Source: an uncultured Victivallales bacterium
GTDB taxonomy: Bacteria; Verrucomicrobiota; Lentisphaeria; Victivallales; UBA1829
Assembly: GCA_944391115.1 (NCBI GenBank)
Contig: CALXSJ010000016.1
Span: forward strand, 1 to 64,000
Direction of reading: 5' to 3'
DNA length: 64,000 nt
The translations under genes were made by a program, and so were the position numbers. A model generated the notes under the pieces. That model was not told the origin of the DNA and did no database searches. It saw only the letters and a list, made by a program, of their open reading frames with translations. Shown here piece after piece: positions 37,842 to 54,985 of this stretch (position 1 is the first letter of the stretch; each line of letters begins with the position of its first letter).

Positions 37842-37974
37842 TTGATTAAGTCAAGATTTCTTATAAAAAAATTAATTCCCCATGGTAAAATATAAAAGGC
37901 ATGCTAAAATAGAATCTGGCGGATCAGGATTATATTAATATTGACTTAGTCAATATGTCAAAGCGTGGAGTCAA
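37842..37974 (+). promoter_or_regulatory. Regulatory region with two palindromic 13-base sites
   Basis: TTGATTAAGTCAA (37842-37854) and TTGACTTAGTCAA (37941-37953) are versions of one palindrome 99 bases apart. The second extends to a perfect 8-base-arm palindrome, ATATTGAC-TTA-GTCAATAT. GTCAA recurs at 37957-37961 and 37970-37974. The AT-rich DNA between them has promoter-like TATAAA words. These look like operators for a dimeric regulator of the 38084-42629 operon. Confidence 0.6.
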
Positions 37975-38083
37975 GGCAGGCCCGGCCGGCCGGAAGAACG
38001 TGTTTCATGGCTCGTTTTATCAGCGGCCTGGCCGTGTGGCATACGCTTTGCACATGAAGCAAATAACCACGGACTGTTTTTTC

Positions 38084-38650: not shown

Positions 38651-38690
38651 ATCGGGAGCAAAAGGCGAACAGGGATTCAGGAAGCAGCTT

Positions 38691-39611
38691 ATGTTTTTCG
38701 AATATCATTTTCACGGATGCATCGGTCACAAGACCACGGAACTGAACCGCGAGGCGTATGAGGAGATGTCCGTCTTCCTGAAAGAGGAGGGAGAGACCGA
38801 CGCCTTTCTTGCCGCATTTTCCGCTGCCCCGATCGACAATCTGACGGCATGTCTGGAATTCTGCGGGGAACTGATGCATGGGCCGCCGCTCTCCGGAGCG
38901 CAGCTCACGGGCGTTTATCTGGAAGGACCGTTTGTCCGTCTGGCGGGCGGCATGACCGAATCCCTGCTGGCGGCGCCGTCCCTGAAAGCGGCGAAACGCC
39001 TGGTTTCCGCCGGACGCGGCATCATCAGAAATGTAACCGTAGCCCCGGAACTCTCCGGAATCCTGCCTGTCATTGAATGTTTTGCTTCGGAGGGGATTCC
39101 TGTTTCCGCCGGTCATTTTTCCTGTTCCCCGGAAATGCTGAATACGGCGGTTTCCGCCGGACTCTCTTCAATTACGCACTTCTGCAACAATGGCGAAGGA
39201 GCTTTGCGGAACGAAAACGGGGTCTATTTCACAGAAGGTCCCTTCCTCGATATTCTTGCCGACGACCGTCTGACGGTGGAAATGATCTGCGACGGCATAC
39301 ATGTGAATCCGAAATTAATCAAAACCGTCTGGCGCGCCAAAGGCCGTGAACGGTTCATCGCCATCACGGACGGGTGTGCCGCCACCGGACTTCCCGGCAA
39401 ACGACTGGTCTTTCCGGATCCCGCCGGAACTCCGGCGGAATTCGACGTGCGCAACGGCGCGCTTTATATCGCCGGAACCGGAAAACTCACGGGAAGTCTG
39501 GCAACCATGAAGCGGATTCATCAAAACTTAATTCAATTCTGCGGAATGACCGATGCAGACGCCGCATACGCCTGCTCCGGCCTGCCGCGCAAAAAAGCAG
39601 GAGTTCTTTAA
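38691..39611 (+). CDS. NagA-like amidohydrolase (N-acetylglucosamine-6-phosphate deacetylase family)
   Basis: The start at 38691 (MFFEYHFHG) follows AGGAAG; the longer frame from 38586 overlaps the upstream gene. The 307-residue protein keeps the NagA metal and catalytic residues: His6 and His8 in EYHFHG, Glu78 in VYLEGPF, His142 in AGHFS, His163 in ITHFCNN, His204 in DGIHV and Asp227 in ITDGC. NagA removes acetate from GlcNAc-6-P. At 307 residues it lacks the beta-sandwich domain that flanks the barrel in typical NagA (about 380), so the substrate may differ. It is directly followed by the alpha/alpha-barrel gene with no gap. Confidence 0.8.
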   Translation: MFFEYHFHGCIGHKTTELNREAYEEMSVFLKEEGETDAFLAAFSAAPIDNLTACLEFCGELMHGPPLSGAQLTGVYLEGPFVRLAGGMTESLLAAPSLKAAKRLVSAGRGIIRNVTVAPELSGILPVIECFASEGIPVSAGHFSCSPEMLNTAVSAGLSSITHFCNNGEGALRNENGVYFTEGPFLDILADDRLTVEMICDGIHVNPKLIKTVWRAKGRERFIAITDGCAATGLPGKRLVFPDPAGTPAEFDVRNGALYIAGTGKLTGSLATMKRIHQNLIQFCGMTDADAAYACSGLPRKKAGVL

Positions 39612-41870
39612 ATGCATGAGGAAATCTGGGCCCGCCAGCGGATGATCGCGGACTACACAGGCAGGGCGCGTTATTACAAGCTGGCGGAGCTGCCGGAACG
39701 TCAGGCGGAACTGATCCGCGGAGAAAAAGCCGTGGTGGTTTGCGGAAATCTGCTGCGCGCCTATGTCTTCGAACGGAATCTCTGGCGCAAAAAAGCGGAA
39801 TCCGATCTGGGCGAAGTCCGGGAAGTGACGTCCGGCAAAGATCACATTCTGATTGAAAGCGCCGCCGGTTCCGAGCGCATCACCGTTGCGGAGGATCCAC
39901 TTGAAAAGGAAGTTTATTTTGTGCGTGATGTGCATTACCGCAATGCCGGAGAGGCCGTTTTCCGTTCCAGTTATTTCAATGAGGGGCCGATCGCCGATTT
40001 CACTTATGTCTCTTACAAATGGATGTCGCGCAAGATGAATCAGGGCGGATATCCCTTCAGCAAAGAGTGGAGCGATTATCTCGCCACTGCGGCGAACAAC
40101 CGGATTTTCTACACCTGTTCCGGCCATCTCTACTTCGGGGAAGCCTATCTGGAAACGGAGCTGGACCGCATTTCCGACACGGAGCGCGAAGATACGGAAC
40201 TGGCGCATGTTTTCAGACTGCGCAGGCCCGTGAACGGTCCGCTGGATCTGCGGTATTTCTGGTTTTTCGGAAAAGGCGGCGAGGAACATGCCGGCGTGCT
40301 TTCCAATGTGATGTGGCATCTGGACAAATCGCCGGTGCACGTTCCGCAGACCGATATGCACGACTTCGTGGAAAAACTGGTTTCGATCTGGCCGCGTTCC
40401 GAGCTCAAGGGGGAGGAAGAGGCGGATCATTACGCCGCACACTATTTTGCGGAATTCTTCGGACAGTTCAAGAATGGTTATCGTCCGCCGGATCAGTTCG
40501 GCTGCTCCTGGCTGGAATACGATCTGCTCAAAGCCAACGAGTTTTACCGCCGCTGGAAACTGACGGGAAAAGCCGAATACCGGGAACGCACGGTGAAACT
40601 GCTGAACTTTTATCTTTATCATCATTACGCCGGCGCTTCGAAACTGACTTATCCCTTCCATACCGGCGACTTCATGAAAAACATCATGCCGTTCTGCGAA
40701 AAAACCGGCTGGGGGGCGCCTTTCGAGGCGGAGGCGCTGGATTCGCTGGCTCTGCCGGAAATGATCTTCGACGCCATGACGCTGTATCTGCAGGACGAGA
40801 CGCTGTTCCAGAGCCAATATCCGTTTGACATTCTGGATGATGTGCTGAAACTGCAGCAGCCGGACGGACATTTCCGCCGTCTCTACAATTCGGATCTTGC
40901 GCCGAAGGAAAAAGCAGGCTGGATCAGCCAGTATTCCGAGACACAGACCTGGATCCCCGCGCTTGTCAAGCTGTATCAGGCGACAGGAGACGAACGGCTG
41001 CGCGCCGCTTATCTGAAAACTGCGGAACGCTGTCTTCTGGATCTGGAGGAATCGGGGATGTTTTCCATGGGGGGCTGTGAAACGGATTACCCGGATTTCT
41101 GGGATGTGGACGGCTACCGCACCATGCTCTGGGCGTTCCTGGATCTCTACGATCAGGAAAAGGACGCCAAATGGCTTGCCGCCGCGGAAAAGGTCCAGCT
41201 CTACGGCAATATCATGCAGATGGGTTACAATGTACCGAATGTGCCGGGCAGTTTCTACGACCGTATCTCCTGGAAGTCCCGCGGCATGATCGCAACAAGT
41301 TATTACACCTGGCCGGATTACTCCCGCACCCAGTGCACCGCCACCGGCAATCAGTCCGTGGCATGGGTCGCGTATCTGCTGATGCGTCTTTACAGAGCCA
41401 CCGGAAAGGCCGTTTACATGGAACGCGGCATCGCGGCATTCCGTCAGGTCATGCTGCACCGGGACGGGAAGAGTCTGGAAGGGAATCCTCACAGGGATCA
41501 GATCCTTTACAGCATCTACGAGAACAATCCGCAGATGGACGACGAATCCGGTCTTTACAAGCACAGCTACCCGGAAAACAGCTATTCCCTCTTCATCGAC
41601 CTTTATCTGTATCTCGGCGTCATTCTGCGGGAATTCGGCGGCGTCAGCGTCGATACCCGGCGGAAACAGGCATTTGGACTGGATTGCGTCAAAATTGTGA
41701 GCGCGGACTGGAACAAAGGAGTGCTTGTCATTCAGAATGAGCTGAATCGGGACCACATCACCTCTTTGTTCATGAACGGAAAAGATAGCGGCAAGATTTC
41801 TTTCTGCGCAGGGGAAGTCAAACGCATTTCGCTTGCAGAACAGGCAGAAACAGCCGGCTGTCAATTTTAA
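39612..41870 (+). CDS. Probable (alpha/alpha)-barrel glycan-active protein, family unknown
   Basis: The 752-residue protein begins on the base after the NagA-like stop codon. There is no signal peptide. Residues 1-250 are beta-rich (VYFVRDVHYRNAGEAVFRSS). Residues about 285-690 show repeated helix pairs of an (alpha/alpha)6 barrel (NGYRPPDQFGCSWLEYDLL, then YSETQTWIPALVKLYQATGD, then TATGNQSVAWVAYLLMRLYR). The last 60 residues are a small beta domain. I cannot assign a CAZy family; the layout is like GH127 and related enzymes. A cytoplasmic glycosidase role for an amino-sugar glycan is inferred from the neighbours. Confidence 0.65.
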   Translation: MHEEIWARQRMIADYTGRARYYKLAELPERQAELIRGEKAVVVCGNLLRAYVFERNLWRKKAESDLGEVREVTSGKDHILIESAAGSERITVAEDPLEKEVYFVRDVHYRNAGEAVFRSSYFNEGPIADFTYVSYKWMSRKMNQGGYPFSKEWSDYLATAANNRIFYTCSGHLYFGEAYLETELDRISDTEREDTELAHVFRLRRPVNGPLDLRYFWFFGKGGEEHAGVLSNVMWHLDKSPVHVPQTDMHDFVEKLVSIWPRSELKGEEEADHYAAHYFAEFFGQFKNGYRPPDQFGCSWLEYDLLKANEFYRRWKLTGKAEYRERTVKLLNFYLYHHYAGASKLTYPFHTGDFMKNIMPFCEKTGWGAPFEAEALDSLALPEMIFDAMTLYLQDETLFQSQYPFDILDDVLKLQQPDGHFRRLYNSDLAPKEKAGWISQYSETQTWIPALVKLYQATGDERLRAAYLKTAERCLLDLEESGMFSMGGCETDYPDFWDVDGYRTMLWAFLDLYDQEKDAKWLAAAEKVQLYGNIMQMGYNVPNVPGSFYDRISWKSRGMIATSYYTWPDYSRTQCTATGNQSVAWVAYLLMRLYRATGKAVYMERGIAAFRQVMLHRDGKSLEGNPHRDQILYSIYENNPQMDDESGLYKHSYPENSYSLFIDLYLYLGVILREFGGVSVDTRRKQAFGLDCVKIVSADWNKGVLVIQNELNRDHITSLFMNGKDSGKISFCAGEVKRISLAEQAETAGCQF

Positions 41871-41882
41871 GGAGGAGGAAGA

Positions 41883-42629
41883 ATGCAGTATCTGAACATG
41901 CTGCCCTATCAGCTGCGCGAGGCTCTGGACAGAAATTATCCGGCGGTTCTGCCGCTGGGGGTCATCGAATATCATGCGGAACATCTGCCGCTTGGCGTGG
42001 ACTGTTTCACCTGTATTGAGGCGATCCGGCGCGTTGAAAAACGCCGTCCGGAACTGGTGGTGCTTCCGCCGTTCTATTACGGCGCGGCATCGCTTGCCGT
42101 CGCCGGACCGGAACGCAACGGCACAATCCAGGTGGATTCGGAAAAGATCATTCCTGTTGCCGAAGAGATTTTCCGCGGACTGCTTCGGGTCGGATTTCGC
42201 AACATCCATGCGTTCATCGCACATCAGACGGAAGGGTTTGAGCAGGGCATGCCGACGGATCTGGCATTCCGTTTTGCGGCACGTCATGTGATCTTCGAAT
42301 GGCTGGAGAAAGAATCCGGCGAAGGATGGTGGGGAACGGAGAAGTTCAGTTCCTATTATTCCGGCAGCAATGATCCGTTCCAATGGATTGGAGTGCATCC
42401 GATCCGGAGCAGGGAAACGACGGCGGCATATGGGTGCGACCACGCGGGGAAACTGGAAACCAGCGAAGCCATGGCCATCTGTCCGGACCATGTCGAAATG
42501 CATCGTCTGGATGAGTCGCTCTGGTTCAGCCGTCCGGGAAAAGAGGCCTCGCCGGAATGGGGCGACGGTGCGCTTGAGGCTTCTTCCCGGGACATGGAAA
42601 AAATTCTGTTCGGCGGGATGAGGCAGTAA
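41883..42629 (+). CDS. Creatininase-family amidohydrolase
   Basis: The 248-residue protein starts after GGAGGAGGAAGA. It carries the family signature PLGVIEYHAEHLPLGVD (metal ligands Glu29, His31, Asp40) and HAGKLETSEAMA, the HAG-x-x-ETS motif. The usual central NGHGGN motif is replaced by FIAHQTEGF, keeping the His. Creatininase-family enzymes open cyclic amides or hydrolyse amide-linked sugar derivatives. It is the last gene of the operon with the NagA-like enzyme; an amide or amino-sugar substrate is an attractive but unproven link. Confidence 0.85.
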   Translation: MQYLNMLPYQLREALDRNYPAVLPLGVIEYHAEHLPLGVDCFTCIEAIRRVEKRRPELVVLPPFYYGAASLAVAGPERNGTIQVDSEKIIPVAEEIFRGLLRVGFRNIHAFIAHQTEGFEQGMPTDLAFRFAARHVIFEWLEKESGEGWWGTEKFSSYYSGSNDPFQWIGVHPIRSRETTAAYGCDHAGKLETSEAMAICPDHVEMHRLDESLWFSRPGKEASPEWGDGALEASSRDMEKILFGGMRQ

Positions 42630-43007: not shown

Positions 43008-43835
43008 CTATTTCACAATCAGTTCCGACGGTGCGCTCCGGTAGGAGGCCTGCACTTCGATTTTCAGATAGCGTGCAGTCTGCTTCGGGAATTCCAGCAT
43101 CTGTTCGCTGGCGAGTTTCACTTGTTCTCCGGCTTTGATCCAGTTTTTCCCGTCCGGAGAGGTGGATACCACGACTTTGTCAAAAGGCGCCATGCAGCAG
43201 AATCCGACTGCGGAGACCTCTTTATTTCCGCCGAGATCAACTGTCAATGTGGATCCCCGGTAGGCGCTGTAATGATTTCCGCGCGGCATGGAGTTGCCGT
43301 CCACCAGGAATTTTGGAGAAAAACGCCAGTTCATTCCCTGGCCCTTTTCGTCGATGGTGCAGAAGGTTGCAAGATTGACCGGGACATCGGGAATGAAACC
43401 CGCCATTTCCGAGATGCTGATCGCCTGTTTTTTGTCGGCGGCCCCTCTGAGTTTCAGCCGGATTCCCCTGACAGATACCGGCTCAGGCAGATACAGTGAG
43501 AGCATGCCGTTCCCGCATGTGGATTTCATCTTCCCGAGTTCTTTCCAGTTCTTTCCGTCCCCGGAGGCTTCCGCCACGCCTCCGGCAAGATTGGCTCCGA
43601 TCAATGTAACCGCCTGAATTTGCAAGGTTTCCGGAAGCTGACATGTCAGAGTGGCAGTGGCATCCTCCCTGGTATAGCTTTGCCAGCGCGTGTCCATCCT
43701 GCCGTCGAAGGCCTGGGGGATGCTTTTCGGGTATGCGGTGGCACTCCAGGAACCCGAGGTGAAAATGTTTTCTGCTCCGGAGACTCCTGCCGCGGTCAGC
43801 AGGACGGCGATCATGGTGAAAACTGCTTTGTTCAT
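43008..43835 (-). CDS. Secreted protein with two F5/8-type-C-like (discoidin) domains
   Basis: The 275-residue protein has a signal peptide (VFTMIAVLLTAAGVSGAE). Two discoidin-like beta-sandwich domains follow: about 22-145 (PQAFDGRMDTRWQSYTRED, then GDGKNWKELGKM) and about 155-275 (PKFLVDGNSMPRGNHYSAYR, then SPDGKNWIKAGEQV). The FDG-x-x-DTRW and DGKNW motifs are typical of the F5/8 type C (CBM32-like) family, which binds galactose or GalNAc-containing glycans. There is no catalytic domain, so it may act as a surface sugar-binding protein. It is the last gene of the chondroitinase-like operon. Confidence 0.8.
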   Translation of the reverse strand: MNKAVFTMIAVLLTAAGVSGAENIFTSGSWSATAYPKSIPQAFDGRMDTRWQSYTREDATATLTCQLPETLQIQAVTLIGANLAGGVAEASGDGKNWKELGKMKSTCGNGMLSLYLPEPVSVRGIRLKLRGAADKKQAISISEMAGFIPDVPVNLATFCTIDEKGQGMNWRFSPKFLVDGNSMPRGNHYSAYRGSTLTVDLGGNKEVSAVGFCCMAPFDKVVVSTSPDGKNWIKAGEQVKLASEQMLEFPKQTARYLKIEVQASYRSAPSELIVK

Positions 43836-43863: not shown

Positions 43864-45138
43864 TCAGCAGGTTACTTTTATGACCGGAAGGTCTATGAGT
43901 GACGCTTCCGGCGGCAGCTCCAGGCACAGCTGTCCATTGTTCCATGAGAACGGGACGGCTTCTCCCGATTCCAGAAGGACGGCAGAGTGCGGTTTCTGTT
44001 CCATTCCGGCAATGACGATGCGCCTGTCATCCGGCGGCGTCATCAGATGACAGTACAGCGAACCGTCCTTTCCGCGGGTGATTCGTCCCCATTCCGGTTC
44101 CGGGAGCCCGGATGTGCCCGTGCCGTAAACGGCCTCGCCGTTGACGGCGAGCCATGCGCCGATTTCCCGCAGCCTGCGGATGGAAGCTCCCGGAATGGCT
44201 CCGTTCGGCAGCGGTCCGATATTCAGCTGGTAGTTTCCGTTTTTCGAAGCATTTGAAATCAGATTGCAGAGTAGTTCTCTGACGGATTTCCAGTGAAAAT
44301 CCCGTTTGCTGTATCCCCAGGATTCGTTGAAGGTGCCGCTGGTCTCCCAGGGGCGGCTGATACTTTCCGCAGGAAATGTATTGTCCGGCATGGAGAGGTA
44401 ATCAATTCCGGCATTGTTTCCGTCCGGATGATTCCATGTCACCCCGATTCTGCTGTTGACGATTCCGCCGCGGGAATGAATGAGATCCATCAGGCGCTCC
44501 AGGCGTTCCGGAGTCAGCAGGGGACTTTTCGCCCAGCAGTCAAGCCAGAAGAGGCGGATGCCGTAATTGTCCAGCAGTTCGCGAATCTGGGGAAGACATT
44601 TTCCCGAGAAATATTCCCCGTATGCCTGCTGTGACGGCTGAACGATTTCAGGATCGCCCGGAATCGCCGGCCAGTGAGGTTTCCCTCCGCCCGCCTCATG
44701 CCAGTCCAGCCAGTGGGAATAGTATGCGCCGAAGAGAATGCCTTCATGGTCGCATGCCTTTTTGAATTCTCCGATCAGGTCGCGTCCGAACGGCGTTTTT
44801 CTGACGACATTGTAACTGCTGACGGAGGTATCATACATGGCGAATCCGTCATGATGCTTTGCCGTTATCACAACATATCCCGCGCCGGCATTCCTGATTT
44901 CCCGCGCCCATGCCGCCGGATCGAATTCCTCTGCTGTGAATTCGTTGGCCAGGGCATCGTATTCCTCATCCGGAATCGGCCCGCCGTCCGGCCAGAGCGC
45001 CTGATATTTGATCCATTCGGCATAGGCGTTGCGTCCCTGCGCTTTTCCTTTCCAGATTCCGCCGGGAATGGAGTAGAGTCCATAGTGGATGAAAATGCCG
45101 AACCGCAGGTCTGTGAATTGCTGCAACAGATCTTTCAT
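43864..45138 (-). CDS. GH29 family alpha-L-fucosidase (cytoplasmic)
   Basis: The 424-residue protein has the GH29 barrel: FGIFIHYGLYSIPGG at the N terminus, AGYVVITAKHHDGFAMYDT with His95 and His96, GILFGAYYSHWLDWHE, and IRLFWLDCWA placing the nucleophile Asp200. Later come SWGYSKRDFHWKS and NYQLNIGPLPNGAI, both family marks. GH29 enzymes release alpha-L-fucose with retention. There is no signal peptide, so it would act on imported oligosaccharide. The usual FDGG after the nucleophile strand is LDCW here, so it is a divergent member. It is 15 bases downstream of the second PL8-like gene. Confidence 0.9.
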   Translation of the reverse strand: MKDLLQQFTDLRFGIFIHYGLYSIPGGIWKGKAQGRNAYAEWIKYQALWPDGGPIPDEEYDALANEFTAEEFDPAAWAREIRNAGAGYVVITAKHHDGFAMYDTSVSSYNVVRKTPFGRDLIGEFKKACDHEGILFGAYYSHWLDWHEAGGGKPHWPAIPGDPEIVQPSQQAYGEYFSGKCLPQIRELLDNYGIRLFWLDCWAKSPLLTPERLERLMDLIHSRGGIVNSRIGVTWNHPDGNNAGIDYLSMPDNTFPAESISRPWETSGTFNESWGYSKRDFHWKSVRELLCNLISNASKNGNYQLNIGPLPNGAIPGASIRRLREIGAWLAVNGEAVYGTGTSGLPEPEWGRITRGKDGSLYCHLMTPPDDRRIVIAGMEQKPHSAVLLESGEAVPFSWNNGQLCLELPPEASLIDLPVIKVTC

Positions 45139-45153
45139 AAGAAAGGGTCTCCT

Positions 45154-47919
45154 TTATTGTTTCGGTACAACGATTGTATTGCCAAGAGGATAGCGCGGAT
45201 CCACATGGACACTGTCCACACCGGTCAGTTTGATCTTCAACGGGGAGCGGTCCGCCGGATCGCTGATGGCCACGCTCAGTTCGTAGGCATGGGCAAGCTC
45301 TTTCACGCCAATGAATGCCGGACGGCTGACCGATTCCAGCGGTTTCGGATAATTTCCGGGAGCGAAAATCACATATCCCGTTGTCTTTGTCCTGTCGTCC
45401 CGGACGGCATGGACGGTTCTGTCGAACCGCAGGACTTTCATCTGCGGATTCGCCGCGAATGCCTGCGCCTTTGTCTGGTCTGCCTGGATCAGAATGGTGT
45501 AGGCACAGCTTCTCCCCATCGGATTGCGTCCGTGGTCGATGTAGGCGAGGGCAAATTCCCCCCGGGTGGGGGTGTAATACTTTTCATTGTCTTCGTATTT
45601 CTTTTCCCGGAATGATTTGGAGGCCATATCCTTCAACGGATTGTTGTCCGGATTCCTGAGATAACGTTTGTAGAAGTAGGTCCAGCTCTGCCGGCCTTTC
45701 TGGAATTTTACCTGAGGCGCTCCTTTCCAGATCCGGTAACTGTTGCCGAGATTGTCGCCGAGCAGACTGCCGTCCTTCCAGGCCGAAATCCTGTTTCCGG
45801 AGGGAATCTGCTGAAAGATTGTGGTAACGGCGCTGCCGCCGGGGGAATTCCCGGGACGGGGGTTGGCTTTGACGATGTCGCTGACGGTAATTGTGATTCT
45901 GTCATCGAAGAAAAAAATTCCCTGCCTGAAACTGACATCGCTTCCTGTGAAATACATTCCCCAGACTCCATTGCCTTCCGGAATCGTGACACCTCCGGCA
46001 AAGTTGTTTCCATTGCCGTACATCGCATACCCTTCAAAAATTTCGGCGGGAGTCCGGATTACGCTGGTTGCTCCGGGAATATGATTCCAGTTCCACCCCC
46101 CGGTCCGGAAGGCGTCTTCGCCGTCGATGGAGAGGAACAGGGAGCCGTTGCGGCTGTTGCGTCCGTAGTTGTTGTTTTCGAGCCAGCCGTAAATTTCCAG
46201 CCCCCGGTGACATGCAAGCATTCCGGCGGCGGCTGCCATGACTTTACCCCGGCGGTGAACCGCCAGGGCGGCCAGATTGAACGTCATATGTCCTTCCAGC
46301 GGCAGAGGAGTCAGGCCTTCCGCAAGGAAGCGGCTGCTTTCTCCGGTTTTCCTTCCGTTGAGCGCGCTCAGATAGAGACGCGCCATCCGGCGGTCGGGCG
46401 TATCGATTTTTGAAAGAAGCAAAGCTATTTCGCTGCCGTCAATTGTCAGGCGGTCACCCGCCCGCATGGGCAGATTGATTGGAGTTTTTCCGTGATCGAG
46501 CTGGAAATTCAGCGCATACGCATATCGGTAAAGTTTTTCGCGGGTGCTTCCGGCGACGGCGAATTGCGTTCCCTCCAGCGGAAGAAGCTGGAACCTGATC
46601 AGCGCCGGAATGGCGTAGCTTCCGTAGGCGGGATGATGTCCGCCGTGATGATGAACCGTCCCATCCTCGCCGAGCGGCGACTGCGAGGCAAGCGAGAGAT
46701 CGTAAAAACGTTTCAGGACGCGGAAACGCTGATAACGCTCCGCCGGATCTTCCATCATTGCAATGCAGAGCGGCACCTGTGACGTGTAATTGAAATAGAA
46801 ATCGCAATTGCCCTGCGGAGATTCCATCATCATCTCCTTTCCACCTGACAGCCAGCCTGCAGCTTTTGCCATTTCGTCAAGAAGCCCGGCCCGCTTCAAC
46901 TCCTCCCGGAGCGCATGGAGCGCGGGAGGCCAGTGACGCCAGCCGTATCCGTTGCCGATCCATCCGAGATTTCCATTGCCCTGGGCATATCCCTGAACCA
47001 GCATATAGCGGCAGAGCGCCGTGCCGATCTCCGCGGCACGTCTGCGTTCCGTTCCCTTGAGGCGGGGCAGGAGAAACTGAATTTTACGAAAGAGCGGAAG
47101 AAGTTTCTGCTTGAAATCAATGGAGCCCTTCACCGTCAGCGGGATCGTGTTCTTGAAACCGAATTCCAGCGCGGGGCCGGAACCGTTTCCGGAAATTCCC
47201 AGTGCGGAAAATTCTTTTTCCAGTTTTTCCACGCTGTCACAGGAGAGCGGCGAACTGTGCATGAGCGGATGACTGAAACGTTCCGTCACCAGTTTCAAAT
47301 CTCTTTTCCCCTGTTCTGAAATCTCTGTTTCGGGAAGGAATTCCGGAAGATACGGACGGTTGAAGGCGATGTCGCGGCTGCTGAAAATGGTCTTCCCTGG
47401 TGGGAGTTTCAGCATATCCTTGTGTCCGATCCACGGCTGGACATGGTCGGCGCGCCAGGCGTTTGTCACATAGACGGGGCGCAGTTCGTCGATCCGCGCA
47501 CTGCCGGCTTCCGGCGGAGCGGTCAGAACAATCCTGCTGATGGCTGTGCCCGGTTTGATCCCGATGTCGGAAAAGGGGCCTCCCATCGGGCGCCAGTAAC
47601 GGAAATTGAGGTTGAACCAGGCCTTTCCAAGAGATTTGCCTCCATCGAAGAATTCCACATGAAGCCTGCCGCTGCACGGCTTTTCCAGATAGAACCACAT
47701 GCCGAAGGCTCCATCCCTTTCCGGAACGGTGACACGCGGGAAGCGGATTTCCAGTTTCCCCGATCCGTTCCACTTCCAGAGACGCGATGACGGCGGGCTC
47801 TTGAAATGGTCGCGGACCTCTGCGGTTTCCCCGGATTCCGCGCGCCAGATTTCATTTGCGCCTGATGCCGCTGCCGCCGCAAGAAACAGCATCGGGATAA
47901 GAAGAAAACAACTTTTCAT
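45154..47919 (-). CDS. Secreted PL8-type chondroitin-ABC-lyase-like enzyme (second copy)
   Basis: The start at 47919 has GGAGAA upstream and overlaps the previous stop as ATGA; the longer frame to 48165 lies inside the neighbour. The 921-residue protein has a signal peptide (LLIPMLFLAAAAASGANE), a jelly-roll N domain (about 25-150), a helical toroid (about 200-540) and beta-sandwich domains. Aligned by eye with Proteus chondroitin ABC lyase, the catalytic set is present: His425 and Tyr432 in HHHGGHHPAYGSY, Arg486 in NLPMRAGDR and Glu575 in GLEIYGW. These enzymes cut glycosaminoglycans by beta-elimination. Its N domain is more divergent than that of its neighbour. Confidence 0.82.
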   Translation of the reverse strand: MKSCFLLIPMLFLAAAAASGANEIWRAESGETAEVRDHFKSPPSSRLWKWNGSGKLEIRFPRVTVPERDGAFGMWFYLEKPCSGRLHVEFFDGGKSLGKAWFNLNFRYWRPMGGPFSDIGIKPGTAISRIVLTAPPEAGSARIDELRPVYVTNAWRADHVQPWIGHKDMLKLPPGKTIFSSRDIAFNRPYLPEFLPETEISEQGKRDLKLVTERFSHPLMHSSPLSCDSVEKLEKEFSALGISGNGSGPALEFGFKNTIPLTVKGSIDFKQKLLPLFRKIQFLLPRLKGTERRRAAEIGTALCRYMLVQGYAQGNGNLGWIGNGYGWRHWPPALHALREELKRAGLLDEMAKAAGWLSGGKEMMMESPQGNCDFYFNYTSQVPLCIAMMEDPAERYQRFRVLKRFYDLSLASQSPLGEDGTVHHHGGHHPAYGSYAIPALIRFQLLPLEGTQFAVAGSTREKLYRYAYALNFQLDHGKTPINLPMRAGDRLTIDGSEIALLLSKIDTPDRRMARLYLSALNGRKTGESSRFLAEGLTPLPLEGHMTFNLAALAVHRRGKVMAAAAGMLACHRGLEIYGWLENNNYGRNSRNGSLFLSIDGEDAFRTGGWNWNHIPGATSVIRTPAEIFEGYAMYGNGNNFAGGVTIPEGNGVWGMYFTGSDVSFRQGIFFFDDRITITVSDIVKANPRPGNSPGGSAVTTIFQQIPSGNRISAWKDGSLLGDNLGNSYRIWKGAPQVKFQKGRQSWTYFYKRYLRNPDNNPLKDMASKSFREKKYEDNEKYYTPTRGEFALAYIDHGRNPMGRSCAYTILIQADQTKAQAFAANPQMKVLRFDRTVHAVRDDRTKTTGYVIFAPGNYPKPLESVSRPAFIGVKELAHAYELSVAISDPADRSPLKIKLTGVDSVHVDPRYPLGNTIVVPKQ

Positions 47920-50903
47920 TGACGGTTCTCCCTGTATTTGAAAACCGCTGTCGCGGCTTCCAGATTGTAGTTCTGAATCTCGAATTCGGAGCGTCCAAGC
48001 GCCCGGATCTGTCCGGAGGAAGCGGCAGGCTCCCAGCCTTCTTTCAGCCGGATGCGGGTTGTGACATTTTTCTGCATCCGATATCCCGGGCCCGGGGCAT
48101 CCAGAAGCGGATTGAGCAGATCCATGCGCAGCATTCCGTTTTCTGCATGTGCCATGACAATACACGGGGCGGAAACCGCGCAGAGCTCCCCGAAATTCAC
48201 TTCTCCCGCTTCAAACAGAGCGTATCCGGCAAGATTTTTTTCCGGAATATGGACGATGTGGGCGTTCCGGTCGCGCCGGACGATCCGGAAGGGAAGTTTT
48301 TCCGGGGAGCTCCTCCAGAGTTCCGCAATCCGTTCCGCGCGTTCCGCCCGCGACGGGAGGAAGACCATATATTCGTATCCGGCATTTTCCGGCGCCGGAC
48401 CGTGATCAAAGTAAGCCAGTTCCATTTCCCCTTCGTTGGAGATGATTTTATTGTGCAGTTCCGGATTTTTCTCATTCCAGTAGGGATGGAACGGCCAGGC
48501 TGTTTTCCCCCGCCGGAACCGGACATTGCCATTGCGGAACGCATAGCCGTTTCCTGCCGAATCAATGAAGAAACCTTTTCCCGCTTGAAATTTCGTTTTG
48601 TCCAGTTTTTCAAGGGAGTTCTGAAAGAGCGTCGTTGCCACGGGCGCGCTGTCCGAAGCTCTGATTGCGCTTCCCAGCATCAGCATCATGCCGTCGAAGG
48701 CGAAAAGGGATTTGCGCGCCCGGAAGCTCGTGTCGATCCGCGACTCCGCACAGCGTTTTGCATATTCGGCGCGCCCGAGATACCAGACCGGCGGACCGAC
48801 CCGGAGCGGGTCATCGAGTTCCGGAAGTTCCTCCTGCAGTTTCATCGCCCACATTCCGGCGTCGCCCTGTGCGACGGCGCCTGCAAATGACTCGCCTGTC
48901 AGAGCTTCGACGTTTTCAAAGTGCTGGCGCAGCGCCTCCGCGGGGAGAACGCGTGCGGTGGTTCCCGGCCAGAAGTTGTAGTTCCAGCCCCTGTTCAGAA
49001 TGAAACCGCTTTTTTCCGGAGTCTCGCCAAGAATCTGCATCTGCCCGAAATTGAGATAGCGTCCCATGGTGTTTCCATCTTGAAATGCGTAAATCTCATT
49101 GGCGAACATGCCGTTGCGCTGTCCGCGCACAACCGCCATTCCACTGCCCTGCCGGTGAATCATGGAAACCGCATAGTTCAGCGCGGCACTTCCTGTCATG
49201 GGATCCGGCAGGATTCCCGCTGCGCGGAATCGGTCTCCCGCCGGAGTTTTCCTGTTGTAAAAGTGTTCAAATGCCAGATAGCGCGCTGCGCATGCCCTGT
49301 CCAGTTCTCCCGGCGCTTCGGCGATCCACGCCAGAGCGGAGGCATGGGCGAAAGTGAATTTCGCGCACTCTCTCCAGCGTCCGGAGAACATATGCGGTCC
49401 GTACGGATTGGAATAAAAGGCCATTGCCATCACCGCTTTTCGCATCAGGCGATGCATCCGCTCCGGAAAGAAGGGGGAATTCCGCAGCAGATGAACCGTC
49501 CGGCAGATCGGTTCGAGAGCCGGCAGATTGTATCCCGCATAAATCATGGAGTGATGCGTCATCGTGCCATCCGGCCATAAATCCCCGTTTCCGGCGGTGA
49601 GATTGAGCCAGCGCTTCAGCGCAAGAAGGTCTCTCCAGCCGGTGCGCGGATCATCCTGAAGGAAAATCACGCCGATGCAGCTCTCCAGGAGTGTGTTATA
49701 GAAGTCGGCGTTGCCGCTGCACTCCTTCCGGTAAAGTTCATCGACTCCTGCAATGAAGCGAAGACGGGCGATCAGTGCGTCGAAGCGTCCGGCTTTTTTC
49801 AGCTCCTCCCGAAGCAGACGCACCGGGGCGATGAAGCTGGTCCGCATGCCGTAAAAACTGCCGTGCCCCTGCTGGATGACCAGATCGGTCATATCCAGCA
49901 TCAGGCTGTGCCACTGTTTGCGTTCCCCTTCCGGCATTTCGCCGAAATTCAACGCCCGCCCGACGGTATGCAGATCGCCGTAAAACGCCGGGATGTCGCG
50001 AATCTGTCCGCTGACGAATGTTCCCGTCCGCCGGAGCGCCCAGCGGTTCCGGATCTCCTGCAGTCGATTCTTTTCATCCGGCTGAAATGTGGTGCCGGCA
50101 GGAAATCTTTGCAGAAACTCTTGTCCGATGCGTTGTAACATCCGCATTTGTCCCGGGGAAAGCTTCTCCGGTGTTTCGATTGCAATGCGGGGCGCCGCGG
50201 GATCAAACAGGGCAACGGAAAACGGGGATTCGTAAGCGTCCGCCTCCATCCAGAGAGGTTGTTCGGAACTCAGATCGCGCCTGGCGACATAAGGCATTCT
50301 TGATGACGGCCGTACCGCGCGCACATCCAGTTCGCGGCGCGGCGCGAAATCATCAAGGAAAAGGCATCCCTTTGAGAACCCCCGCGGAGCTGTGATACGC
50401 ATCACCGCCGCACCGGAAGCGGGAAATTTTGCCAGATCGCGTCCGTAAAGAAGCGAATTGAAGGTCCAGCCCGTGAAATTCAGATTGATGTAAAAGGTGC
50501 TGCCGCCGATTTCAAAGCGAAGGTTTCCTCCGATTTTTTCCGGGCAGAAGATCCAGGCAGAAAAGCCGCTCAGATCGCAGAAGGTCACCCATTCGTAAAC
50601 AATGGGATCCGGGGATTTTCCCGTCAGATGGCGGAAGGCTTCCGGGTTGCGGAATGCAATCCATGCATCCGGTTTGTCCCATTCCCAGCGCAGCGACCGT
50701 GAGCCGTTTTTCGCGTAATCCGCCGAGATGGTCAGTTCCGAACCCGGCCCTGCGGAGAAATCCCCAGGAACCGAATCCGATTCAAAGGTATAAGTCATAA
50801 AGTCCGGTCTGCGTATTTCATAGGGAGCTGCCGCGCCCGCCAGCGGCGCCGCTGCAAGCAGCGCTCCGAGGTGCCATGCGTTTTTTCCGATATTCTTTTT
50901 CAT
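47916..50903 (-). CDS. Secreted PL8-type chondroitin-ABC-lyase-like enzyme (first copy)
   Basis: The start at 50903 (MKKNIGKNAW) has GGAGGAAGAG upstream; the frame runs to 50999 without one. The 995-residue protein has a signal peptide (LGALLAAAPLAGAAAPYE), a Lyase_N-type jelly roll (about 30-190, with GSELTISADYAKNGSRSLRW), a toroid (about 230-560) and a C-terminal beta-sandwich region (about 580-995). By eye against Proteus chondroitin ABC lyase, His451 and Tyr458 in THHSMIYAGYNLP, Arg509 in MFSGRW and Glu603 in ANEIYAF correspond to the four catalytic residues with nearly the same spacing. FDHGPAPENAGYEYMVFL matches the conserved C-terminal strand. A glycosaminoglycan lyase role is likely; the exact polymer is not proven. 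Confidence 0.88.
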   Translation of the reverse strand: MKKNIGKNAWHLGALLAAAPLAGAAAPYEIRRPDFMTYTFESDSVPGDFSAGPGSELTISADYAKNGSRSLRWEWDKPDAWIAFRNPEAFRHLTGKSPDPIVYEWVTFCDLSGFSAWIFCPEKIGGNLRFEIGGSTFYINLNFTGWTFNSLLYGRDLAKFPASGAAVMRITAPRGFSKGCLFLDDFAPRRELDVRAVRPSSRMPYVARRDLSSEQPLWMEADAYESPFSVALFDPAAPRIAIETPEKLSPGQMRMLQRIGQEFLQRFPAGTTFQPDEKNRLQEIRNRWALRRTGTFVSGQIRDIPAFYGDLHTVGRALNFGEMPEGERKQWHSLMLDMTDLVIQQGHGSFYGMRTSFIAPVRLLREELKKAGRFDALIARLRFIAGVDELYRKECSGNADFYNTLLESCIGVIFLQDDPRTGWRDLLALKRWLNLTAGNGDLWPDGTMTHHSMIYAGYNLPALEPICRTVHLLRNSPFFPERMHRLMRKAVMAMAFYSNPYGPHMFSGRWRECAKFTFAHASALAWIAEAPGELDRACAARYLAFEHFYNRKTPAGDRFRAAGILPDPMTGSAALNYAVSMIHRQGSGMAVVRGQRNGMFANEIYAFQDGNTMGRYLNFGQMQILGETPEKSGFILNRGWNYNFWPGTTARVLPAEALRQHFENVEALTGESFAGAVAQGDAGMWAMKLQEELPELDDPLRVGPPVWYLGRAEYAKRCAESRIDTSFRARKSLFAFDGMMLMLGSAIRASDSAPVATTLFQNSLEKLDKTKFQAGKGFFIDSAGNGYAFRNGNVRFRRGKTAWPFHPYWNEKNPELHNKIISNEGEMELAYFDHGPAPENAGYEYMVFLPSRAERAERIAELWRSSPEKLPFRIVRRDRNAHIVHIPEKNLAGYALFEAGEVNFGELCAVSAPCIVMAHAENGMLRMDLLNPLLDAPGPGYRMQKNVTTRIRLKEGWEPAASSGQIRALGRSEFEIQNYNLEAATAVFKYRENRQ

Positions 50904-50947: not shown

Positions 50948-52360
50948 CTATTCCGTGCACGGCGGCTGATAATTCTTTTCCCCGCCGTACTGTTTCCATT
51001 TGAAATAGACATAGATCAGCGCCGCGGTCGCGATCATGGTGAAAACGGCGTCCCAGACAAAAATGAAACGGTATCCGAAAAAATCGACCGCCACTCCCCC
51101 CAGATAATTTCCCAGAATCAGCAGAAGGGAGCGCACGATGGCATTCGCACTGCAGAACTGTCCGTATTTATCCTTCGGAAAGATCATGACGCCAAGCGGC
51201 GCGGAACAGACGTTCTGCATGGCATAGACGACACTGATCGCAATGCCGACAGCGAAAAAGGACCCATAGTCCGTCGTGAAGAAATATCCCCAGATGTTGG
51301 CGGCGAGAATCGGCACGGCGCTGAGCAGATACAGGAGCATCGGCGAGAACCGGTCGACGATGAATCCCATGGCAAAAATCACGCCCAGCGACACGAGAGC
51401 GCCGACCGCGCCGACTTTTCCGAACTGTTCCACTGTCATATGCAGGTCTTCGGTGGCGAAAAGCAGATTGAATACGCTGCGGCAGGTGGTCGAGACGCTG
51501 TGAAGTCCGAGTCCGAGGAAGAACATGAGGAAAAAGGGCTGGCGGTAGCATTGGCGGAAATAGATGACGATCCACTCCAGAAGCCGCCGCAGGAGGGAGT
51601 TCCGCTCCTTCTGATACTCGGCCGCCGGCGGATATTCCCCCTCCCGGACAAACACGCACATCAGCATGAAAATCACAAAGTAGGCCGCTCCGACGCCGGT
51701 GAACACCCATGCCGTATTGATTTTCACCAGAGGAAGAACATAGAGGCTGAATACCAGCGTCGTCAGGATTCCCGCGATGTTCGAGGCCGCAATAAATCGC
51801 CCGAAGAAACGCAGCGGAATCACATCCGGGGCAAGATAATAGTAAACCGATCCTACAATCAGGTCAAAGAACTGAAACAGAACCGCGCAGAGCGCAATCA
51901 GGAGAATCACCAGAGCATTGCCTGTGAGCCCCATGTTCCAGGAGTGCGCATCCAGAAAGGCGGCGAACTGCGGCATCCAGCCGAGCAGAATCACAAAAAG
52001 CGCAACGAAGGGGGTTGCGAACATGAGATAAGGCCGCCGTCTTCCCCAGCGCGAACGCGTCCGGTCGCTGGCAGTCGAGAGCACCGGATTCATCACGGCG
52101 TTCATTGCCGAAGGCAGATTGCCGACGACGAGTCCGATCAGCGCGGCCGAAGCATGGTAGTCCTTCAGAACCAGAGGAAGCACCGTCGGCACCATCATCC
52201 ATGCCATCAGCGAAAAACAGCATCCGCCCAGAATCAGCCAGAATCCGACGAGGATGACGCCGAACAGGGAATAACGCAGCGTTCCGATCTGATAAGGTTT
52301 ATGCTCAGTTTCTGTCTGGCAATCCGTCATATGCCGTTCTCCGGAGGCAAGTGCCTGCAT
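50948..52360 (-). CDS. MFS transporter, GPH/sugar:cation symporter type
   Basis: The 470-residue protein has about twelve membrane helices. The first loop contains VMNPVLSTASDRTRSRWGRR followed by RPYLMF, the hallmark of glycoside-pentoside-hexuronide symporters and related sucrose-type carriers. The second half repeats the fold with SPMLLYLLSAVPILAANIWG. It would import mono- or oligosaccharides with H+ or Na+. GGAGAA lies before both candidate starts (52360 and 52330). Its position just before two glycosaminoglycan-lyase-like genes suggests it takes up the unsaturated disaccharides they release. Confidence 0.85.
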   Translation of the reverse strand: MQALASGERHMTDCQTETEHKPYQIGTLRYSLFGVILVGFWLILGGCCFSLMAWMMVPTVLPLVLKDYHASAALIGLVVGNLPSAMNAVMNPVLSTASDRTRSRWGRRRPYLMFATPFVALFVILLGWMPQFAAFLDAHSWNMGLTGNALVILLIALCAVLFQFFDLIVGSVYYYLAPDVIPLRFFGRFIAASNIAGILTTLVFSLYVLPLVKINTAWVFTGVGAAYFVIFMLMCVFVREGEYPPAAEYQKERNSLLRRLLEWIVIYFRQCYRQPFFLMFFLGLGLHSVSTTCRSVFNLLFATEDLHMTVEQFGKVGAVGALVSLGVIFAMGFIVDRFSPMLLYLLSAVPILAANIWGYFFTTDYGSFFAVGIAISVVYAMQNVCSAPLGVMIFPKDKYGQFCSANAIVRSLLLILGNYLGGVAVDFFGYRFIFVWDAVFTMIATAALIYVYFKWKQYGGEKNYQPPCTE

Positions 52361-52413: not shown

Positions 52414-53109
52414 TTATTGAATCCAGACGGATTTTCTGCCGACGAAATCGACCCGGAGAACCCCGGTCATCTTCTGTTCTTCAAACTTATTGTAATAACG
52501 CGGAACTCTGACCGTGTTGCCGTCCAGTGCCTGGGAGGGCGACAGGCTTGCGGCATGTCCGTCAAGGAATATGATATTGCCGCTCGTTCTGTGGAACAGT
52601 GCAAATACGCCGCTTGCCGTTGTTTTTCCTCCTTCCATTACACAGAAGGGACCGTTCCAGTCAAAACGCCAGGCTTCTCCCAGAAGAAGCATCCGCGATG
52701 TGTTTTTGAACTGATTCAGCGGCATATACTGAAAAACATTCTGCATATGGCAGCGGGGAACGGCATAGGTGTGAACCTCGCTGATGCCCTGATAGAGGCT
52801 GAAGGCCTCCGGGCAGATTTTCTGTTTCAGATCACTGTTTTTCTGAAATCCCGGCAACCCGGCTTTTTGGTAATAGAAGAACCATGACGTTTTACGTCCT
52901 ACCGGCTGTTGGGCAAAAATAAAGCCTTTGTTGTCCTCCGCGTAATTCAGGAGCAGTAAACTCAGCTGTCGTTCCTGATTCAGGCAGCTGATCTTCCGCG
53001 CGTTCATTCTGGCATTGTTCAACGCCGGCAGCAGCATGGCCGCAAGAATGGAAATGATTGCAATAACGACAAGAAGCTCGATCAAAGTGAAATTTTTCCA
53101 GCGGGACAT
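52414..53109 (-). CDS. Pseudopilin with type II/IV prepilin signal
   Basis: The chosen start is 53109 (MSRWKNF), with AGGAG upstream; the frame stays open to 53283. The 231-residue protein has the prepilin signal [20 protein letters not shown] followed by [20 protein letters not shown]. The C-terminal part shows [31 protein letters not shown] and [17 protein letters not shown], in line with DUF1559-like pseudopilins. It is the first gene of the six-gene leftward operon with the MFS symporter and the PL8-like lyases, and is divergent from the GntR/LacI regulator at 53903. Confidence 0.88.
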
Positions 53110-53518
53110 GAATAGATTTCTCCTTTTATTTGTGAATGATTCTGCAAGTGCAGGAATGTTCTGTTTCTGGATACGGTCACCGGCAGCAGTGCGGAGCGGC
53201 ACCGCGTAAGCCCGCTCCATGATTTTATTCTTGAAAGAAAACGTTCCGGTCATGGCATTCTCCTTTTTTTTGATTGCAGGCATTGCCGGCTTTCCTGTTT
53301 TTCATATGGCAGTCATGCTTTTTGCTTCCGCGGATGGAATTCCCGTGCTTCGAACAATTCATGTTTTCAAGTCCGTCGTAATGCAAACCCGCATTTTGAC
53401 TGCCGCAGAAAATCCTTTTTTGTTTTCTGGAAGCGTCGGGACAGGAGTCTGTTTTCTGTTCTTCCATGCTGGAAGGAGATGCTGCCGAGTGCCGCCAGTT
53501 TTTTTGTTACGCTATTTA
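53110..53518. other. Long leader or non-coding region before the pseudopilin operon
   Basis: About 410 bases separate the best leftward promoter from the pseudopilin ATG. The pseudopilin frame is open back to 53283, and an 80-codon leftward frame (53225-53467) exists but has no ribosome binding site. It may be an untranslated leader. I see no clear RNA structure. Confidence 0.35.
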
Positions 53519-53545
53519 ATTATAATGCAGTTTTTGTTTTGTCAA
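53519..53545 (-). promoter_or_regulatory. Candidate promoter of the chondroitinase-like operon
   Basis: On the minus strand TTGACA (53545-53540) and TATAAT (53524-53519), both perfect consensus, are 15 bases apart. The -10 is followed by TAAATA, similar to the TATAATTAATA at the eight-gene operon (24169-24159). Confidence 0.6.
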
Positions 53546-53902
53546 GATTCAGTTTTCATTTTTTTTAAATATCTGATTCGTTAATTGAAAAGAGCGGGGG
53601 TTCATGCTTCGTCGTTTTTGGAAAAATGATTCGGGGAAAGGCTTTGAAATTCGTAAAAATAAGATTTTTCTGCGTAAAAAACCATTTTTTCTTTAAGATG
53701 TTCCGGAGCTGTTTTTTTCTATGTTCCGGTGGATGAGGAATCTGTTTTCTCTTTTTTCAGAGGGTCTGATTTTTCTTTTTATTATTTAAAAAGAAGAAAA
53801 AATAGGATTTTTTTGATTTAGATTATTGTAATTATGATACAGTTTTGCTATTTTACATCAAAAATAAATGGAATGTCTTGAAATTCAGCTCGGAGGTGTC
53901 TT
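53546..53902. other. AT-rich regulatory region upstream of the GntR/LacI regulator
   Basis: No gene is supported. The region is rich in T-runs and contains an imperfect inverted repeat of TTTTTCTTTTT and AAAAAGAAGAAAAA at 53771-53805. Promoter-like words (TTGATT, TATGAT) occur near 53813-53839. The ribosome binding site GGAGG lies at the end. Confidence 0.35.
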
Positions 53903-54985
53903 ATGACGGAAAAGGGAGAGAAAAACAAACGGGGGCGGAAAACCGATAAGCGCGATTCGCTCCGGGAACGTATTTCCGAGGATTTGCGCAATGGCGTCTT
54001 TTCCGGCAAGCTGCCGGGACTGAACGTGCTGGCGCAACGCTATGGAGCGTCTCCGGCAACCGTGCAGCGTTCCCTGCGTGAACTTTCGGCATTGGGATTT
54101 GTCGATATCCGGCCGAGAAGCGGGACATATGTGAAACTTTCGCGCGAAGTGAATTTTGTCTTTTTTGAAGATCATATGGCGGATTCTGCCAAAGGTGTCA
54201 GCCGTCCTTCCGGTTTCCAGGCGGAGTATGGAATTCTGTATGACGGACTCCATGATACCCTTCGTGACGCCGGGGTCGTATGCCAATTTTACCAGGTTGA
54301 CGGCAGTTCTCCGCGTTTTCTGAACGACAATGCTCTGGTGGTTGCTCTCTTCACCCAATATGTGCAGGAGTTTGCCTACCGCTTTTTGGAGAATACGAAC
54401 TGGATCCGTGTGATGGGGGCTCAGGACTATAATTGTCCCGGCGGTCATATCACTTACGATAATCTCCGGATCGGCAGGATGGCGGTCGATTATCTCGCTT
54501 CCGCCGGATGCCGGAGAATCGCCTGCATCGGAAGTCCCCGCCTGCTGCTTTTCCGCCAGCGGATCGATTCGGTTCTCGAAGAGTGCCGTGTCCGCGGAAT
54601 TGAAATCCAGCAGTGGGAGGTTGACCTTCAGTCGATGCCGCTTTCGGAAATCTGCCGGAGGATCGGGAACGGCATTGCGGCAGACCGCGAGGCCATCGCG
54701 TCCGGCGAACTGGGCATTTTCTGCTGTGCAGACCATTTTATGGTGCCTTTGCGGCAGGAGATGGCGGCTGTGGGGCTTTCTCCGGAAACAATACACCATC
54801 TGTCATGTGACAACAATCCCTGTTTCCTGCGGGGCATCTATCCTCCTCCGGCAGAAATAGATATCGGAATGTACCGGATTGGAGTAGCTGCGGCGCATCA
54901 GATTCTCGGACCCGCCGGGCAGATCAAAAACAAATCGATGATTTCTCCGGAACTGATCCTCCCGGATCCCGGCGAATATAAATGA
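53903..54985 (+). CDS. GntR-type HTH / LacI-type effector domain transcriptional regulator
   Basis: The 360-residue protein starts after GGAGGTGTCTT. After a very basic tail (EKNKRGRKTDKRDSLRER) comes a GntR winged helix (about 18-80: LPGLNVLAQRYGASPATVQR, then GFVDIRPRSGTYVKL). Residues about 85-355 form a LacI-like effector domain (YDNLRIGRMAVDYLASAGCR, then IACIGSPRLLLFRQRIDSVL). It is divergent from the six-gene pseudopilin-MFS-PL8-GH29 operon and probably controls it in response to a released disaccharide. A 108-base gap separates it from the next rightward gene. Confidence 0.88.
   Translation: MTEKGEKNKRGRKTDKRDSLRERISEDLRNGVFSGKLPGLNVLAQRYGASPATVQRSLRELSALGFVDIRPRSGTYVKLSREVNFVFFEDHMADSAKGVSRPSGFQAEYGILYDGLHDTLRDAGVVCQFYQVDGSSPRFLNDNALVVALFTQYVQEFAYRFLENTNWIRVMGAQDYNCPGGHITYDNLRIGRMAVDYLASAGCRRIACIGSPRLLLFRQRIDSVLEECRVRGIEIQQWEVDLQSMPLSEICRRIGNGIAADREAIASGELGIFCCADHFMVPLRQEMAAVGLSPETIHHLSCDNNPCFLRGIYPPPAEIDIGMYRIGVAAAHQILGPAGQIKNKSMISPELILPDPGEYK

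Follow-up and report, generated by a model that had tools for sequence, protein, structure and literature searches.

Two diverged chondroitin-ABC-lyase-like proteins in a fucosidase cassette of a Victivallales bacterium: candidates for breakdown of a sulfate-free, fucose-bearing uronate polymer

What polymer is addressed by two adjacent chondroitin-lyase-like genes that stand beside a fucosidase gene, with neither a sulfatase nor a GH88 unsaturated glucuronidase in their vicinity? This question is raised by a locus of an uncultured Victivallales bacterium of the class Lentisphaeria (GenBank assembly GCA_944391115.1, contig CALXSJ010000016.1), located in a stretch of 64,000 nucleotides (positions 1 to 64,000 of the forward strand) that we refer to as the window. 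The two genes, termed lyase A and lyase B, encode proteins of polysaccharide lyase family 8 (PL8), overlap in an ATGA and belong to a cassette of seven genes: a regulator, a pseudopilin, an MFS importer, lyase B, lyase A, a GH29 fucosidase and an F5/8 protein. Judged from their sequences, lyases A and B would constitute a strongly diverged new variant of ABC-type PL8 lyases placed in a fucosidase cassette. PL8 enzymes themselves are already known; the novelty is the divergent pair, and a fucosidase cassette in genomes without the usual downstream enzymes.

A sequence-only reading of the window had described two tandem ABC-lyase-like proteins; the open reading frames, Pfam domains and Protein Data Bank (PDB) matches all agree with that description and show both proteins to be full-length. 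Lyase A possesses the Lyase_catalyt, Lyase_8, Lyase_N and Lyase_8_C domains, each above its cut-off; the same four domains are recognized in lyase B, where Lyase_8_C, at 18.3 bits, falls short of its cut-off of 22 and the other three pass. The closest PDB sequences are ABC lyases for both proteins: 7eip and 1hn0 (E-values of 7.7e-29 and 1.4e-28) and 2q1f (2.9e-25) for lyase A, and 2q1f (5.7e-44), 7eip and 1hn0 (1.5e-43 and 1.7e-43) for lyase B. The NCBIfam chondroitinase-AC equivalog NF043001 is reached by neither, with 32.5 bits for A and 33.5 bits for B against a curated cut-off of 1000. Signal-peptide-like N-termini were read by eye on both lyases and on the F5/8 protein. The strong mutual difference of A and B, also anticipated from the letters, amounts to an identity of 23-24%.

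The catalytic tetrad was mapped by locating the Proteus residues H501, Y508, R560 and E653 in the compared motifs, counting along a phmmer alignment. The proposal that both proteins keep equivalents of His501, Tyr508, Arg560 and Glu653 with matching spacing is upheld by two multiple alignments of 10 and 61 rows, with intervals of 7/54/89 in A and 7/51/94 in B as compared to 7/52/93 in the Proteus enzyme (Table 1; residues of A and B are counted from one codon before Met). Arg487 of lyase A lies four residues off R560 in the pairwise phmmer alignment and on its column in both multiple alignments. The 61-row alignment further shows the tetrad intact in lyase A and lyase B of both genomes that carry the cassette, and all four residues are present in 58 of the 61 family rows, the exceptions being L031, one of three L056 proteins, and L078. 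Across these sequences, tetrad retention appears typical of the PL8 family, not automatic. The L031 homologue (L031:5500-8475), from genome G050 of the same order, has lost the catalytic Tyr and Arg and is likely non-catalytic.

AlphaFold2 models built from 23-row alignments had a mean predicted local distance difference test score (pLDDT) of 78.0 for lyase A and 77.2 for lyase B, and known structures were ranked against them using VIA-align 2. The top structures for the A model were 2q1f (Z 44.3, 839 residues, root mean square deviation (rmsd) 5.1), 7eip (43.7) and 1hn0 (43.7); for the B model they were 7eip (Z 38.9, 843 residues, rmsd 6.0), 1hn0 (38.6) and 2q1f (38.0). These best matches align over 828-856 residues, and AC, xanthan and hyaluronate lyases rank below the ABC lyases for both models. 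The models give good support for placing both lyases in the PL8 fold. The Proteus vulgaris ABC lyase I (1hn0, 7eip) and the Bacteroides thetaiotaomicron ABC lyase (2q1f) thus share the four-domain architecture, the fold and the tetrad with A and B; however, identity in the structure alignments is only 20-25%, and several family-conserved residues are replaced.

The extent of this divergence is apparent in a tree of 61 PL8 proteins, in which the stems of A and B, at 3.3 and 2.23 changes per column, are the longest. We do not claim that A and B are duplicates of one another; the tree tool flags their pairing as a possible long-branch artefact. Conservation was scored over 68 columns, each conserved in 85% or more of 54 rows; A and B, the orthologue of each and three rows with a broken tetrad were omitted from this definition. 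Lyase A keeps 50 of the 68 columns (73.5%) and lyase B 53 (77.9%), which together with the orthologues are the lowest values among the 61 rows; the omission somewhat lowers the A and B scores, but the three broken rows, likewise omitted, still score higher. Among the replacements is that of the Trp located three residues ahead of the catalytic Glu, by Arg573 in lyase A and by Phe601 in lyase B; in place of the GRHP motif, A has MRAG and B has GRWR. Replacement of family-conserved residues near the active site is consistent with altered specificity.

The genes surrounding the lyases are tightly organized. Gaps between the same-strand genes, from the pseudopilin through the F5/8 gene, do not exceed 53 bases, and the regulator is divergently oriented. 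The GH29, F5/8-type and MFS neighbors named by the sequence-only reading are all recovered by Pfam.

Table 1. Positions of the cassette genes, the catalytic residues and the candidate operators in the window.
Feature	Position	Strand	Description or basis
Regulator	53903..54985	+	GntR-type helix-turn-helix and LacI-like periplasmic-binding-protein domain; Pfam GntR, Peripla_BP_3
Candidate operator copy 2, beside regulator	53830..53846	+	conserved in comparison to G026
Candidate operator copy 1, operon side of intergenic region	53518..53534	+	conserved in comparison to G026
Pseudopilin-like exported protein	52414..53283	-	N_methyl 21.5 bits (cut-off 21.2); true start probably internal
MFS / GPH-like sugar symporter	50948..52360	-	predicted importer of lyase products; Pfam MFS_1, MFS_2
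Lyase B	47916-50903	-	PL8, chondroitin-ABC-lyase architecture; 995 aa
Lyase B tetrad	His452 49551-53; Tyr459 49530-32; Arg510 49377-79; Glu604 49095-97	-	10-row and 61-row alignments
Lyase A	45154-47919	-	PL8, chondroitin-ABC-lyase architecture; 921 aa counted from own ATG
Lyase A tetrad	His426 46645-47; Tyr433 46624-26; Arg487 46462-64; Glu576 46195-97	-	10-row and 61-row alignments
GH29 alpha-L-fucosidase	43864..45138	-	Pfam Alpha_L_fucos 257 bits (cut-off 25.2); PDB 9s0x 7.6e-73
F5/8 protein	43008..43835	-	presumed glycan binder of exported appearance with two F5/8 type C (galactose-binding-like) stretches; F5_F8_type_C, F5_F8_type_C_2

One other genome (G026, 89% complete), which belongs to a second genus, carries all seven genes in identical order; the genome of the window (G000) is 95.39% complete. 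Identity between the two carriers is 80% for the F5/8 protein, 89% for GH29, 81% for lyase A, 79% for lyase B, 84% for the MFS protein, 69% for the pseudopilin and 74% for the regulator, and a second GH29 gene lies beside the cassette in G026. The ratio of nonsynonymous to synonymous substitution rates (dN/dS, YN00), computed for six genes with the pseudopilin left out, is 0.139 for F5/8, 0.107 for GH29, 0.128 for lyase A, 0.134 for lyase B, 0.104 for MFS and 0.085 for the regulator; these six genes of the cassette are under purifying selection. Lyase A is present in two of 137 genomes of the order, its own included (E up to 1e-30), and absent from the three congeners searched; at 1e-20, with distant paralogues counted, matches occur in five of 148 relatives. 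This sparse distribution suggests transfer or repeated loss.

Two loci elsewhere bear on this arrangement of genes. In an Opitutaceae metagenome-assembled genome (MAG; L067:9734-14514), an ABC-type PL8 gene overlaps the start of an MFS gene whose product is 30.6% identical to the MFS protein of the window, and no sulfatase was found at that locus. The genome of the window itself carries a third PL8 gene, AC-lyase-like, on contig C1 (L033:7199-14137, at about 25.2-32.1 kb); its neighbors are a GntR/LacI-type regulator, a DUF1559 pseudopilin-like protein and an SSF symporter, a module that resembles the window cassette in its regulator, pseudopilin, lyase and transporter.

The frame of the GH29 gene extends from stop to stop over 43864-45153 and has five codons ahead of its ATG, too few for a signal peptide; the enzyme probably acts in the cytoplasm on imported oligosaccharides. 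Asp200 aligns with the aspartate of the WYD motif of 9s0x and so occupies the nucleophile position; Glu265 aligns with a Glu of 9rzx and a Gln of 9s0x. We also considered GH29 as the missing unsaturated uronidase, as the unsaturated residue is named alpha-L-threo, suggesting a parallel to alpha-L-fucose. This is very unlikely: the standard fucosidase motifs are kept, and beta-D-glucuronate is 1,2-trans while alpha-L-fucose is 1,2-cis.

Enzymes that would process the lyase products were then looked for beyond the cassette. Our own profiles found neither sulfatase nor GH88 in the whole 64-kb window, and PF07470, which covers GH88 and GH105, had no match in the own genome; the earlier statement that both are missing locally therefore holds and, by Pfam and profile searches, extends to the entire genome. 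PF07470 is present in 18 of the 61 genomes of the relatives search. Of five genomes that contain PL8 relatives, three (G000, G026 and G090) are without a match, G141 has five matches (two being pieces of one open frame) and G144 has four. For PF00884, the own genome holds three proteins, two LtaS-like membrane proteins and one EptA-like. The C/S-x-P/A-x-R motif was matched in neither LtaS-like protein by a regular expression, which is imperfect in that one of three S1-like control proteins went unmatched, and was not seen by eye in the EptA-like protein; the three loci (L034-L036) were not picked up by our S1-sulfatase profile at 1e-6. These proteins look like phosphoglycerol or phosphoethanolamine transferases rather than S1 sulfatases. 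Elsewhere, PF00884 matches number two in G026, one in G090 (by Pfam match alone), 125 in G141 and 124 in G144, so that the Lentisphaera-type genomes G141 and G144 combine their PL8 relatives with 4-5 GH88 and 124-125 sulfatase matches each.

A strong PF04962 match in both carriers made KduI, which would handle the released keto-uronate, a candidate sign of a hidden pathway. It was rejected: the sole PF04962 protein of each genome is IolB by NCBIfam, over the curated cut-off. KduI was not found in G000 or G026; unrelated isomerases such as DhuI were not searched. The own genome is without sulfatase, GH88 and KduI, and the second carrier without GH88 and KduI. Since neither GH88 nor a sulfatase was found in the own genome, none lies there under the same regulator, and a complete chondroitin sulfate pathway elsewhere under the same control, which would have spoken for ordinary chondroitin sulfate, was searched for and not found in the 95%-complete assembly.

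How unusual these absences are can be gauged from 68 loci fetched with the family alignment, 55 of which hold a PL8 frame (BLAST with A or B), with flanks of at most 10 kb that are often cut. Our own profiles detected sulfatase in 33 of the loci, GH29 in seven (L039, L053, L057, L064, L069, L070 and L083) and GH88 in three (L060, L065 and L102), the last with a profile built from 11 relatives' sequences that may miss distant members. A missing GH88 near PL8 is no clue, because 65 of the 68 loci are without it, and lack of a sulfatase at a PL8 locus is only moderately unusual. GH29 occurs near PL8 relatives in four other phyla (L053, L057, L064, L069, L070 and L083), the hosts being Flavobacteriaceae, Arthrobacter, a planctomycete and a verrucomicrobial MAG; a sulfatase accompanies GH29 in five of the six, and the group is a candidate set of fucosylated chondroitin sulfate loci.

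Comparison with described systems places the cassette apart from each of them. The B. thetaiotaomicron chondroitin sulfate polysaccharide utilization locus (PUL) likewise joins several PL8 lyases to an importer and a regulator, but has GH88, sulfatases, SusC/D-like proteins and a hybrid two-component system (HTCS) regulator, in contrast to the MFS protein, the GntR/LacI-type regulator and the GH29 of our cassette, which has neither GH88 nor sulfatase. PMC9067506 describes a division of labor in that organism between an exo-acting PL8 enzyme, BT3324, and an endo-acting one, BT3350, and a requirement for PL8, sulfatases and GH88 in chondroitin use; two chondroitinases, endo and exo, are also described for Proteus vulgaris (PMC7793863 and PMC9067506). 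Bacteroides caccae PUL25 is, according to PMC12269599, a lyase system that acts on unsulfated chondroitin without a dedicated sulfatase in the locus; it uses PL35, GH88, GH109 and a GH154-type dehydratase, whereas our cassette has PL8 and no GH88. The same paper traces the founding PL35 chondroitinase to Victivallis vadensis, so chondroitin lyases are already known in the phylum, and with PMC9067506 it indicates that unsulfated unsaturated disaccharides are GH88 substrates too. The PL8 locus of Lentisphaera marina (L028/L065) comes from the same class and has two ABC-type PL8 genes close together; unlike our genome, it has S1 sulfatases and GH88 alongside PL8, in a genome with 124 sulfatase matches. 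Among the publications listed in searches on fucosylated chondroitin with PL8 and GH29 and on Lentisphaerota or Victivallis chondroitin lyases, none was recognizable by title or abstract start as describing the cassette.

Taken together, we favor, at about even confidence, a small, self-regulated carbohydrate-use operon whose most likely target is a sulfate-free, fucose-bearing uronate polymer and not ordinary chondroitin sulfate. In PL8 chemistry, a Tyr serves as general base and acid, His and Arg assist, and the charge of the uronate is neutralized. Lyases A and B, once exported, would depolymerize a uronic-acid polymer by beta-elimination, and may be complementary in specificity or mode, possibly one endo- and the other exo-acting, a division seen in other bacteria that have PL8 lyases in pairs; the MFS protein would import the oligosaccharides, and GH29 would then remove alpha-L-fucose in the cytoplasm. 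The polymer could be a bacterial capsule or a host-derived glycosaminoglycan (GAG)-like chain. Of the case originally made for an unsulfated or fucosylated GAG-like target, the missing sulfatases still fit a sulfate-free chain and the conserved GH29 still fits fucose, but the missing GH88 is uninformative: unsulfated unsaturated disaccharides need GH88 too, so its absence cannot indicate an unsulfated GAG. Sea cucumber fucosylated chondroitin is heavily sulfated and would need sulfatases, so fucosylation combined with the lack of a sulfatase points away from a polymer of that type. Several points weigh against the favored target. At 95% completeness single genes could be missing from the assembly, although the second carrier (89%) is also without GH88; GH29 alone is no proof of fucose on the lyase substrate; sulfatase is present in five of the seven GH29-PL8 loci, so that the association elsewhere is mostly with sulfated polymers; PL8 lyases cut sulfated chains without sulfatases; and we know of no route by which the unsaturated disaccharide, sulfated or not, is used without GH88. 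It is unlikely, in our estimate, that the target is an undescribed sulfate-free fucosylated GAG-like polymer from which an enzyme outside GH88/GH105 frees the unsaturated uronate, an account under which neither carrier would need GH88 or KduI and the own genome would also manage without sulfatases.

Because PL8 enzymes cut sulfated chains without sulfatases, scavenging or cross-feeding also has to be weighed: the lyases would cut chondroitin sulfate, dermatan sulfate or hyaluronan, neighbors in the community would desulfate and take the unsaturated sugars, and the bacterium would keep a part such as the N-acetylhexosamine. The closest solved relatives are lyases of these chains, known PL8 enzymes act on hyaluronan, chondroitin sulfate or dermatan sulfate (PMC7793863), and the third PL8 of the genome is AC-lyase-like. 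A NagA-like deacetylase gene (38586-39611; TIGR00221 143 bits, under the cut-off of 225.65) lies 3.4 kb past the operon end, but outside the conserved cassette, with no match in L026/L027; scavenging moreover leaves the conserved cytoplasmic GH29 and the strong divergence of both lyases unexplained, and we regard it as possible but somewhat doubtful. That divergence, with the longest stems in the tree and replaced residues beside the active site, would be accommodated by a non-GAG uronate polymer, such as a plant or algal polysaccharide containing fucose and glucuronate or a bacterial exopolysaccharide, just as xanthan or alginate is the substrate of other PL8 enzymes, and PL8-fold relatives do include xanthan lyase and mannuronate lyase. 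The Lyase_N architecture is nevertheless of the ABC-lyase type, and sequence and structure both rank ABC lyases first, which makes such a substrate rather improbable. Least probable by far is that A and B are decayed or repurposed proteins without lyase activity: they and their orthologues score lowest among the 61 rows at the conserved columns, and homologues that have lost catalytic residues exist (L031, L056 and L078), but the tetrad is intact in both genes of both carriers, the frames are open, dN/dS is 0.13 and the operon is conserved. If active, lyases A and B would be PL8 enzymes that branch deeply and whose active sites have altered surroundings, and they could serve in the search for new uronate-polymer specificities. 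The sulfate-free, fucose-bearing target that we favor makes the cassette a concrete candidate operon for the breakdown of fucosylated, unsulfated uronate polymers, and the fact that two carriers lack both GH88 and KduI raises a testable question, namely what becomes of unsaturated uronides in bacteria with GAG-type lyases and no known unsaturated uronyl hydrolase.

With respect to control of the cassette, alignment of the intergenic region with that of G026 revealed AATTATRATRCAGTTTT-like words common to both, from which the two candidate operators derive. Exact matches to the operator word occur only in the cassette intergenic region, two in G000 and one in G026, all other matches having two mismatches; total matches, compared to a reversed-pattern control, are 5 and 4 in G000 and 6 and 2 in G026. 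A wider regulon was rejected, as exact words are confined to the cassette and the remaining matches in G000 do not exceed the control; the regulon looks local to the cassette. Scans for promoters and terminators carried little information: promoter-like sites numbered 9, with 5.7 expected by chance, and terminator-like sites 22, with an expectation of 14.6.

Three further regions of the window were noted. A plus-strand run at 37955-42629 encodes an unknown protein, the NagA-like deacetylase, a 752-aa protein and a creatininase-family protein; the 752-aa protein (39612-41870) was matched by no Pfam or NCBIfam family, nor significantly by any PDB entry. A 1040-aa protein at 34292-37414 has weak matches to the chondroitinase B and Pel9A-like beta-helix families. 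Lastly, the segment 9132-18317 holds a LacI/GntR-type regulator next to GH95-like and GHL6/GH42-like hydrolases and to GDSL lipases, which together may form a second cluster linked to fucose or galactose.

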